Assembly: GCA_947504725.1 (NCBI GenBank) | Contig: CANNHN010000003.1 | Location: 214,945-278,944 of the forward strand | Source: Bacteroidota bacterium | GTDB lineage: Bacteria > Bacteroidota > Bacteroidia > 2-12-FULL-35-15 | Direction of reading: 5' to 3' | Length of the DNA: 64,000 nt | Shown: positions 18,921 through 21,734 of the stretch, one piece after another | Layout: every line of letters starts with the position of its first letter | Position numbering within the stretch: the stretch's first letter is position 1 | Position numbers and translations under genes: made by a program | The notes under the pieces: generated by a model | The model's input: only the letters and a program-made list of their open reading frames with translations | Told to the model about the DNA's origin: nothing | The model's database searches: none

Positions 18921-18998
18921 AATTCGAATTCTAGTACAAAAATAAAACATTATTCAAAAGCTTGCTAATTATGTTATCAACGGGTAAACGATAGATTG

Positions 18999-19028
18999 TT
19001 GATATGTAATAAATAAATATTATATTTG
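18999..19028 (+). promoter_or_regulatory. Strong promoter of the tRNA-Leu transcript
   Basis: TTG (18999-19001), 19-base spacer, TATATTTG (19021-19028): an exact match to the Bacteroidota TTG-N19-TAnnTTTG promoter. It reads into the three tandem repeats and then tRNA-Leu, so the repeats are part of the tRNA precursor. Confidence 0.85.
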
Positions 19029-19046
19029 CAGTCCTAAAAATTAAAT

Positions 19047-19291
19047 GCGGATGTGGCATTTTTTACGTTGAAGTAAAAACCGCAGCCGCGCTAGTTCTGA
19101 TTAAAGATTGAAGTAAAATAATAATTATGCGGATGTGGCATTTTTTACGTTGAAGTAAAAACCGCAGCCGCGCTAGTTCTAATCAAAGATTGAAGTAAAA
19201 TAATAATTATGCGGATGTGGCATTTTTTACGTTGAAGTAAAAACCGCAGCCGCGCTAGTTCTAATCAAGATTGAAGTAAAATAATAATTAT
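19047..19291 (+). repeat. Three tandem tRNA-Leu-like repeats in the tRNA leader
   Basis: Three head-to-tail units at 19047-19128, 19129-19210 and 19211-19291 (82, 82, 81 bp), nearly identical. Each begins with the first 11 bases of the tRNA-Leu that follows (GCGGATGTGGC) and later contains GCAGCCGCGC-AG, matching the D-arm side of the same tRNA. Between them lies a foreign hairpin, TTTTTAC-gttgaa-GTAAAAA, which with flanking GCGG/CCGC and GTGG/CCGC pairs folds the first 43 bases into one long hairpin. No anticodon arm, variable arm, T arm or 3' acceptor half is present, so they are not functional tRNAs. The phrase TTGAAGTAAAA occurs twice per unit. Confidence 0.9.
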
Positions 19292-19373
19292 GCGGATGTG
19301 GCGTAATTGGCAGCCGCGCCAGACTTAGGATCTGGTGCCGCAAGGCGTGGGGGTTCGAGTCCCTTCATCCGCA
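19292..19373 (+). tRNA. tRNA-Leu (anticodon TAG)
   Basis: 82 bases. Acceptor stem GCGGATG/CATCCGC with discriminator A at 19373; anticodon stem CCAGA/TCTGG enclosing CTTAGGA (anticodon TAG); a long class II variable arm (TGCCGCAAGGCG); T arm GGGGG-TTCGAGT-CCCTT. The CCA end is not encoded. It is preceded directly by three tandem repeats copying its 5' part and followed by a terminator. Confidence 0.96.
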
Positions 19374-19380
19374 CAAAATA

Positions 19381-19421
19381 AAACCGTAACCCTTTGTTTT
19401 AAAGGTGTTTACGGTTTTTTT
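19381..19421 (+). terminator. Terminator after tRNA-Leu
   Basis: AAACCGTAA (19381-19389) pairs with TTACGGTTT (19409-19417), followed by a T run. It ends the tRNA transcript seven bases after the mature 3' end. Confidence 0.88.
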
Positions 19422-19463: not shown

Positions 19464-21734
19464 TCAAATTCTTTCCTCAACAAAGTACATATCCAGTTCG
19501 CCTTTGCCCTTTGCTTGTATTTTTCCTCGGTGTGTGCATTCAAACTTATCCTTCACTAATTCGTAGGTTGTTCCGCTGATGTTTATTTTCCCGGGTTCTC
19601 CACTGCTTTCCATGCGGCTGGCTGTGTTTACCGTATCTCCCCAGATGTCATAGGAGAATTTTTTCACGCCTACGATTCCGGCAACTACGGAACCCGAATG
19701 CACTCCTATCCGAATATCAAAAAACACTTCACCTTTTATTTGCTTTTTCTTTTTGTGCTCCAACATAAATTGTTGGATATCCAAAGCGGCATTTAAAACA
19801 TCTGAAGCATGGGTAAGGTTGGGTGTAGGAAGGCCGCCTGCAGCCATATAGGCATCGCCAATTGTTTTTATTTTTTCGACATTGTGTTTTTCCATAATAA
19901 AATCAAATGCAGAAAAACACTCATTTATTTCATTAACCAATTCCTTTGCCGTAAGTTTTTCTGACAATTGCGTGAAACCTTTAAAATCTGTAAATAATAC
20001 GGTAACTTCATTGATTAGTTTGGCATCCGCACTTCCTTTTCTTTTTAGCTCTTCTGCAACTTCCTCTGGTAAAATATTCAGCAGCAATTCCTCGCTTTTC
20101 TTTTTTTCCTTAAATATATATCCGGTAAAAACTGCAACTAACAATAAACCGATAACAACCGTCCAAATAATAATATTTTGTTTCCTATTTTTTTCTTCGG
20201 CAATGGCCTCTTGATTTTCAAGTTCCTTCTTATGCTCCGCATTTACAACTGCTTCTTTTGTTTCGTACTCGTATTTCATCTGACTCTGAATTGTTTTTTT
20301 ACGGGTTTCTTCATTGTCTAAACTATCACGGTAGAGGATGTATAATTTATAATTTGCAACTTGTGATTTGTAATTACCCATTGCACTATCAACTTGGGCT
20401 AATCCATCGTATGCATTTCTTATCTGTTCCTTGGTCCTTATTTTTATTGAAAGAACAAGCGCGTCTTCCAGATATTTTTTTGCTTCTGAGGCTTTGTTTA
20501 ATTTTAGTTTCACCTTGCCAATGCTAATGAAAGACTCAGAAATTCCTTTTTTGTCTCCAATTTCCTCTCGTATCCTCAAGGAAACATAATAATTCTTCAG
20601 TGCTTCGGGGTAATTGCTTTGCTGAGAATAAACATAAGCAATGTTGTTGTAAGACGCGGCAGTTCCTTTTTTATCGACTAATTCTTCTCTTATCTTTAAG
20701 GCCGCAAAATGATTTTTTAGCGCCTCAATATAATTTCCCTGATCAGCATAAATGCCACCAATGTTGTTGTAAGAAAGAGAGATTCCTTTTTTATCCCCAA
20801 TTTTCTCTAGTATCCTCAAGGAAACAAAATAATTCTTCAGTGCTTCGGGGTAATTTGATTGTCGAAAATAAACACTACCAATGTTGTTGTAGGACGAGGC
20901 AATTCCATATTTAGCGCCAATCGATTCTTCTATTTTCAAGGAAGCAAAATGATTTTTCAACGCCTCTGGGTAATTTCCTAGGTCTGAATAAATATTTCCA
21001 ATGTTGTCGTAAACGGCAGACATTCCAAATTTATCGCCTATTGATTCTTTTATCTTCAAGGTAGCAAAAAGATTTTTCAGCGCCTGGGGGTAATTGCCTT
21101 GATCATGATAAACAATGCCAATATTTCCGTAAGAGTCCGCCATTCCATATTTATCGTCAATTGATTTTCTTATTTTCAGAGCAGCAAAATGATTTTTCAG
21201 CGCCTCAGCGTAATTCCCTTGGTCCCTATAAATTAATCCAATATTGTTGTAAGACGATGCGACTCCTTTTTTATCGCCAATTGCTTCTCTTATTTTTAAA
21301 GAAGCAAAATGACTCTTCAGCGCTTCAGGGTAATTGCCTTGTCGATAATTAGCATTACCAATGTTGAGGTAAGACGTAGCAATTCCTTTTTTATCGCCGA
21401 TGGCTTCACTTATTTTTAGTGTTGTAAAATAATTCTTCAGGGCATCTGGATAATTGCCTTTATCCTCAGCTAAATAACCAAGATATAGAAAGGTGATTCC
21501 CAAACCTTTTTTGAAATCAATCTTATGAGATAGTTCAAGTGCTTTTTTCAAATATTCTTTTGCTTTTGTCTCATCAGTAAATTCAACTTCTAAAAAAAGA
21601 TTGTTATAGGTATTTACTTTCGTTGTGTCTTGTTTGGTAGTTTTAAGCACATTTAAAAGAGAATCTATCCTGCTCTGTTGCCCAAAAGCAAAATGAGAAA
21701 TGATAATAGATAGTATGAAGAGTAGGTTTTTCAT
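19464..21734 (-). CDS. TPR-transmembrane class III adenylate cyclase
   Basis: 756 aa. Signal peptide (1-18), then about nine TPRs of 40 residues (about 75-435, motif GNYPEALKNHFAALKIRE), a charged coiled coil, one transmembrane helix (about 517-538) and a cytoplasmic class III cyclase domain from about 575. Catalytic residues are present: metal-binding Asp in VLFTDFKGFTQ and in KIKTIGDAYM, the adenine-selecting Lys (KIKTIG) and Asp (YDIWGDTVNTASRM), and the Asn and Arg of the last motif. This favours ATP as substrate and cAMP as product. The TPR array would be periplasmic and sense a peptide or protein. The gene lies 43 bases after a paralogous TPR gene that has lost its output domain. Confidence 0.92.
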   Translation of the reverse strand: MKNLLFILSIIISHFAFGQQSRIDSLLNVLKTTKQDTTKVNTYNNLFLEVEFTDETKAKEYLKKALELSHKIDFKKGLGITFLYLGYLAEDKGNYPDALKNYFTTLKISEAIGDKKGIATSYLNIGNANYRQGNYPEALKSHFASLKIREAIGDKKGVASSYNNIGLIYRDQGNYAEALKNHFAALKIRKSIDDKYGMADSYGNIGIVYHDQGNYPQALKNLFATLKIKESIGDKFGMSAVYDNIGNIYSDLGNYPEALKNHFASLKIEESIGAKYGIASSYNNIGSVYFRQSNYPEALKNYFVSLRILEKIGDKKGISLSYNNIGGIYADQGNYIEALKNHFAALKIREELVDKKGTAASYNNIAYVYSQQSNYPEALKNYYVSLRIREEIGDKKGISESFISIGKVKLKLNKASEAKKYLEDALVLSIKIRTKEQIRNAYDGLAQVDSAMGNYKSQVANYKLYILYRDSLDNEETRKKTIQSQMKYEYETKEAVVNAEHKKELENQEAIAEEKNRKQNIIIWTVVIGLLLVAVFTGYIFKEKKKSEELLLNILPEEVAEELKRKGSADAKLINEVTVLFTDFKGFTQLSEKLTAKELVNEINECFSAFDFIMEKHNVEKIKTIGDAYMAAGGLPTPNLTHASDVLNAALDIQQFMLEHKKKKQIKGEVFFDIRIGVHSGSVVAGIVGVKKFSYDIWGDTVNTASRMESSGEPGKINISGTTYELVKDKFECTHRGKIQAKGKGELDMYFVEERI

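Follow-up and report, generated by a model that had tools for sequence, protein, structure and literature searches.

Why should the gene for an essential tRNA be preceded by several truncated copies of its own 5' end? The question is raised by tRNA-Leu(UAG) in a 64,000-nucleotide stretch of DNA from a Bacteroidota bacterium, here called the window, where three tandem partial copies of the tRNA stand directly in front of the gene. Promoter strength is generally assumed to determine the output of bacterial tRNA genes, and housekeeping nucleases to trim their transcripts; regulated leaders on single tRNA genes have, to our knowledge, rarely been described. The comparisons reported below indicate that the copies probably control how this tRNA is made.

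The repeat array and its tRNA

The array consists of three head-to-tail units of 82, 82 and 81 bp (positions 19047-19291, forward strand), placed immediately 5' of tRNA-Leu(UAG) (19292-19373, forward strand). Unit 1 occupies positions 19047-19128, unit 2 positions 19129-19210, and unit 3, which adjoins the tRNA, positions 19211-19291. Their pairwise identity is 98-99%, and Tandem Repeats Finder (TRF) reported a period of 82 with 3.2 copies, 98% matches and a score of 495, in agreement with the preliminary description, which had accurately presented them as three near-identical partial mimics of tRNA-Leu.

Each unit starts with a copy of tRNA nucleotides 1-11 (GCGGATGTGGC), sharing the leader junction with the tRNA as well, and continues with a foreign stem-loop of 23-24 nt that replaces the D-loop. 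There follows GCAGCCGCGC(T)AG, which corresponds to tRNA nucleotides 19-31, and then an AT-rich linker that is the same sequence as the one immediately preceding tRNA-Leu(UAG). The acceptor 3' strand, the T-arm and RCCA are missing. The core stem-loop of unit 3 (ATTTTTTACGTTGAAGTAAAAAC) lies at 19222-19244 (forward strand), and the homologous stem-loops of the other two units at 19058-19080 and 19140-19162. The first seven nucleotides of unit 3, GCGGATG (19211-19217, forward strand), copy the 5' acceptor strand and can pair with CATCCGC at the 3' end of the tRNA. Nucleotides 1-43 of the unit were predicted to form a single nested hairpin of -17.5 kcal/mol, a structure already proposed in the preliminary description; none of 200 shuffled sequences was as stable (z -3.7).

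The only other leucine anticodons found in the genome were UAA and CAA, so that tRNA-Leu(UAG) is the only CUN-reading tRNA found there. The units were not recognized as tRNA, pseudogene or split tRNA by ARAGORN or by the Rfam cloverleaf search; in Rfam only the tRNA itself matched, and no described RNA family exceeded its gathering score on the units. A small open reading frame within the unit was considered and discarded, as it is not preserved (TTG AAG TAA in G000, TTG TAG in G004). Among the other tRNAs of the window genome for which flanks were fetched, none is preceded by a copy of its own 5' end.

Distribution of the units

We searched 36 genomes of the GTDB genus, which make up the entire sample of that family and order, using the unit as query and afterwards a covariance model (R1); the records with names are metagenome-assembled genomes. 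Units were present in eight of the 36 genomes, with three copies in G000, G031 and G032, two in G009 and G028, and one in G004, G027 and G034, the last being worn. Every unit was found directly 5' of tRNA-Leu(UAG), and the carriers, a freshwater group of Bacteroidota, had no second genomic site. The comparison of copy number in related genomes that the preliminary description had suggested revealed a conserved element with one to three copies per carrier species. Occurrence of the same arrangement in independent assemblies of other species also excludes an assembly artefact, which had been envisaged at the outset.

On an RpoB tree, built without G004 because its RpoB was not found, the carriers and G003 formed one clade (support 100/100). 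G003, which is the sister of the carrier G027 on this tree, has no full unit. Its tRNA-Leu(UAG) leader (L038), slightly long at 52 nt, contains GGATGCATTTTTTATCC, which might be what a deletion has left of the unit. Loss of the unit in G003 indicates that the unit is dispensable.

When the search was extended to 395 genomes of the class, a unit was found outside the genus only in G168, which belongs to another family. This single unit (L117, 1410-1479; public contig CAMAVS010000008.1, L107) also stands directly before tRNA-Leu(UAG); its stem-loop is 90% identical to that of the carriers, and its linker is unrelated. The other members of the family of G168 had no unit. We rejected a misbinned contig as its source, since a gene on this contig is 63% identical to a G000 protein and about equally close to several other families, as compared with 75-95% identity for RpoB among clade members, so that an origin of the contig in the carrier clade appears unlikely. 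The G168 unit may result from transfer or from old inheritance.

An exact scan for the core pattern in one genome per species (84,980 species) returned the carriers, G168 and matches without a nearby tRNA, which we took as chance. No copy of the unit was found in the viral contigs and phages searched, and the plasmids searched gave one 27-base match (E 0.5), taken to be at chance level. With tRNA-Leu(UAG) as the sole site, a dispersed repeat, transposon or other mobile element was discarded as a candidate. The earlier suggestion that the units are footprints of an element targeting the tRNA 5' end found no support for the same reasons: the genome has no further copy, the phages and viral contigs searched gave none, and every carrier locus is at tRNA-Leu(UAG).

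Inclusion of the units in the tRNA precursor

A Bacteroidetes-type promoter, TTG-N19-TATATTTGC, was recognized from its sequence and from box spacing in relatives at positions 18996-19029 (forward strand; -7 box at 19021-19029), ahead of unit 1, and would drive both the repeats and the tRNA. Between this box and the tRNA, the window contains no further -7 box of the Bacteroidetes type. A putative intrinsic terminator of the tRNA transcript, ACCGTAA...TTACGGTTTTTTT, lies at 19383-19421 (forward strand) as judged from the sequence.

Most non-carriers have the same type of promoter at a distance of 25-38 nt before the tRNA. In carriers the distance is 105-315 nt, the units occupy the intervening segment, and no additional -7 box of that type lies between them and the tRNA. 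The exceptions among the non-carriers were G013, in which no box was matched near the tRNA, and G003, with the 52-nt distance mentioned above. The longer distance in carriers than in relatives without a unit places the unit inside the precursor transcript. This sequence comparison supports transcription of the repeats with the tRNA, as the preliminary description had proposed from the upstream promoter, and indicates that the units are part of pre-tRNA-Leu(UAG). By sequence and predicted fold, the transcript contains a stable structure 5' of the mature tRNA.

Conservation of the stem-loop between species

Amino-acid identity of RpoB among the clade members was 75-95%. Identity at fourfold-degenerate sites of RpoB was 0.48-0.66 between carriers, with a chance value of 0.41-0.45, which indicates that these sites are near saturation. 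To compare units between species, we used one tRNA-proximal unit per species. Identity of the stem-loop amounted to 0.90 within the clade and to 0.90 between the clade and G168, while the corresponding values for the linker were 0.43 and 0.30. Over nine species, the mean column identity of the stem-loop was 0.90, as against 0.85 and 0.64 in the 5' and 3' tRNA copies, respectively, and 0.34 in the linker; stem-loop and linker differed highly significantly in a column test (p = 8e-10). The 20-nt consensus of the conserved stem-loop is UUUUURC-GWUGWA-GYAAAAA, in which most of both stem arms and several loop positions are invariant.

That the stem-loop is 0.90 identical despite near-saturated fourfold sites in RpoB and diverged linkers means that it is under selection, and these sequence comparisons provide strong evidence that the hairpin has been kept by selection. 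The linkers behave differently: they are nearly the same among the copies and before the tRNA within a genome, and differ between genomes. The array has thus been homogenized locally and the copy number is young, as expected from the recent expansion or homogenization put forward in the preliminary description. The proposal does not extend to the element itself, which must be old in view of the near-saturation of the RpoB sites.

Compensatory changes within the hairpin were sparse and not above those in shuffles. The upper stem showed a single two-sided change, from G-C to A-T in G000, which leaves the dyad symmetric. The lower stem was poorly kept, pair 4-42 being formed in 7 of 13 rows and the stem being weak in G168. 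With so few changes, strong covariation was not apparent, and the case for action at the RNA level rather than the DNA level comes from the position of the units and their complementarity to the tRNA.

Complementarity to the tRNA 3' acceptor strand and predicted folding

Nucleotides 1-7 of the tRNA-proximal unit form 7 of 7 pairs with the 3' acceptor strand of the species' own tRNA in all nine species except G034 (6 of 7). In G009, a changed tRNA acceptor, GCACATG/CATGTGC, is accompanied by an adjacent unit that also reads GCACATG. The two departures from identity with the tRNA, in copy 1 of G009 and in G168, retain a G-U wobble pair. Promoter-proximal copies have drifted, with 4 of 7 pairs in G032, 5 of 7 in G031 and 6 of 7 in G028, and full pairing has been retained in three of the four single-copy species. 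This pattern suggests that it matters for the unit to be complementary to the 3' end of the tRNA. The complementarity could also be maintained by recombination with the tRNA (concerted evolution), which could likewise account for the agreement between unit and tRNA in G009.

In the predicted folds of precursors containing a single unit, the unit copy paired dominantly with the tRNA 3' strand in seven of the nine species. For G000 and G004, pairing within the tRNA acceptor prevailed or was about as strong. The upper stem-loop was present in most of these folds. As a control, we kept the 11-nt copy and shuffled the rest of the unit, which gave a cross-pairing of 0.78-0.96. Since cross-pairing persists in this control, the copied 5' end by itself creates the competition, and the predictions do not demonstrate an evolved switch. 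Folding as modelled is likely to be a consequence of the copy, and is no demonstration of adaptation. We also considered, and rejected, that the hairpin is an insulator shielding tRNA folding from the duplicated 5' strand: this would fit only G000 and G004, the units of the other seven species behaving about like shuffled ones.

A candidate cis-acting leader

The reading that we favour, tentatively, is that the units are a lineage-specific, selected 5'-leader RNA element of pre-tRNA-Leu(UAG), which competes for the 3' acceptor strand and thereby tunes maturation by RNase P. Of the three ideas offered in the preliminary description, a leader controlling the level of tRNA-Leu fares best. The location of the units, their conservation, their inheritance within a clade, the geometry of co-transcription and the retained complementarity to the 3' acceptor strand are observed; the switch and its effect on maturation are what we infer.

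Each unit would be a mimic of the 5' third of the tRNA (the acceptor 5' strand and remnants of the D-arm) built around the conserved 20-nt stem-loop. In the nascent precursor, GCGGAUG of the mimic and the genuine 5' strand of the tRNA would compete for CAUCCGC, the 3' strand. If the mimic is closed in its own hairpin, the tRNA would fold and be cut by RNase P; if the 3' strand is captured, maturation would be delayed or the precursor degraded. The upper stem-loop, being compatible with both states, might be the site where a protein or another signal sets the balance, and the quantity controlled would be the amount of the only tRNA that decodes CUN. It is conceivable, though doubtful, that this represents a new kind of riboregulator acting on a tRNA gene rather than on an mRNA, namely a bistable tRNA-mimic leader switch that captures the 3' acceptor strand and uses the stem-loop as a sensor.

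Alternative explanations

Instead, the units might be released from the precursor by excision and work in trans, each small hairpin RNA titrating an sRNA or an RNA-binding protein by means of the loop GWUGWA. Hairpins in tandem whose stem is almost invariant and whose loop has conserved letters, present in 1-3 copies separated by AU-rich linkers, would suit such a sponge, and a tRNA-spacer sponge, 3'ETS-leuZ, is a precedent (PMC6191717). We nevertheless consider this unlikely, as it leaves unexplained why tRNA nucleotides 1-11 are retained, why the sole site is before tRNA-Leu(UAG), with no second unit site elsewhere in the genomes, and why the tRNA-adjacent copies keep their pairing.

A second alternative starts from the resemblance between the beginning of the 43-nt hairpin and the mature tRNA 5' end: RNase P might bind or cut the unit, which would delay the true cleavage or make processing directional. 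The leader junction and the 11 nucleotides shared with the tRNA, together with the predicted stability of the hairpin (-17.5 kcal/mol), are consistent with this, and leader stem-loops inhibit RNase P in valVW (PMC9433436). What makes such a decoy or modulator rather improbable is that the unit is devoid of the acceptor 3' strand, T-arm and RCCA, and that the lower stem, which would mimic the acceptor, is the part so poorly kept (pair 4-42 in 7 of 13 rows, weak in G168).

The imperfect palindrome TTTTTRC-GWTGWA-GYAAAAA could also work as DNA, as the operator of a regulator or the core site of a recombinase just 3' of the promoter. Its position downstream of a tRNA promoter and its dyad, with 7-bp arms around 6 bp whose symmetry survives the two-sided G-C to A-T change in G000, fit this idea. 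However, the conserved core has an asymmetric centre and a fixed orientation, matches to its pattern elsewhere have no nearby tRNA and look like chance, phages and viral contigs contain none, plasmids contain only the 27-base chance-level match, and the tRNA copy would be left unexplained; this reading is therefore quite improbable.

Finally, the unit could be a neutral leftover, produced when the 5' end of the tRNA was partially duplicated in tandem and maintained by unequal crossing-over with the tRNA gene. This would accommodate the variable copy number, the homogenization within genomes and the loss of the unit in one species, but is disfavoured by conservation and very unlikely, since within-genome homogenization cannot hold a foreign stem-loop at 90% identity between species near synonymous saturation while linkers diverge, and since the unit is also kept in single-copy species and in a species of a different family.

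Comparison with known tRNA-associated elements

In the tyrT operon of E. coli, which gives rise to rtT RNA, 178-bp tandem repeats containing the tRNA 3' end lie downstream of the tRNA. The likeness to our array is that tandem repeats, each with a piece of tRNA, belong to a tRNA transcript; the present repeats differ in being upstream and in carrying tRNA nucleotides 1-11 and 19-31 with a conserved hairpin, and are thus not of the tyrT type.

RNase P is slowed by anti-determinants such as leader stem-loops, as in E. coli tRNA-valV of the valVW operon, and base pairing between the leader and the 3' RCCA (PMC9433436). The units described here similarly place a structure in the 5' leader of a pre-tRNA, before the mature 5' end, that by analogy might slow RNase P. 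The valVW leaders are not described as tRNA copies, in contrast with the 1-3 tRNA-mimic units with a conserved foreign stem-loop found here before a single tRNA gene. 3'ETS-leuZ is the external transcribed spacer found in the glyW-cysT-leuZ transcript of E. coli (PMC6191717, citing Lalaouna et al. 2015). It likewise belongs to the non-tRNA portion of a tRNA-Leu transcript and may have a regulatory role, and differs in being a single 3' spacer that pairs with sRNAs and has no tRNA-like repeats. The pseudo-tRNA tRNA-Other of Bacillus cereus (PMC3399842) is a different case, as it is stand-alone and island-associated and not the leader of a working tRNA.

Our literature search brought up no earlier account of a bacterial tRNA leader that contains tRNA-mimic repeats. 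By analogy, the element would resemble known leader structures in its function and the tyrT repeats in its appearance. A selected tRNA-mimic leader before the only CUN decoder, kept over deep divergence, makes regulation of one tRNA by RNA structure in its precursor directly testable, and related species with and without the element, which have the same tRNA, provide a natural contrast.

Other features near tRNA-Leu(UAG)

G030 has two near-identical tRNA-Leu(UAG) loci (L042 and L061) on different contigs, which reflect either a strain mixture or a duplication. In the tRNA leaders of G009 (L008) and G004 (L004), palindromic segments of the GCTATCGGG type, possibly a dispersed repeat, are found 5' of the unit. 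In the window, the gene adjoining the tRNA is a 756-aa open reading frame (19464-21734, reverse strand), in which a 120-bp coding repeat (40 aa) recurs about 7.7 times at 20541-21460; our guess is that these repeats might be TPR-like.
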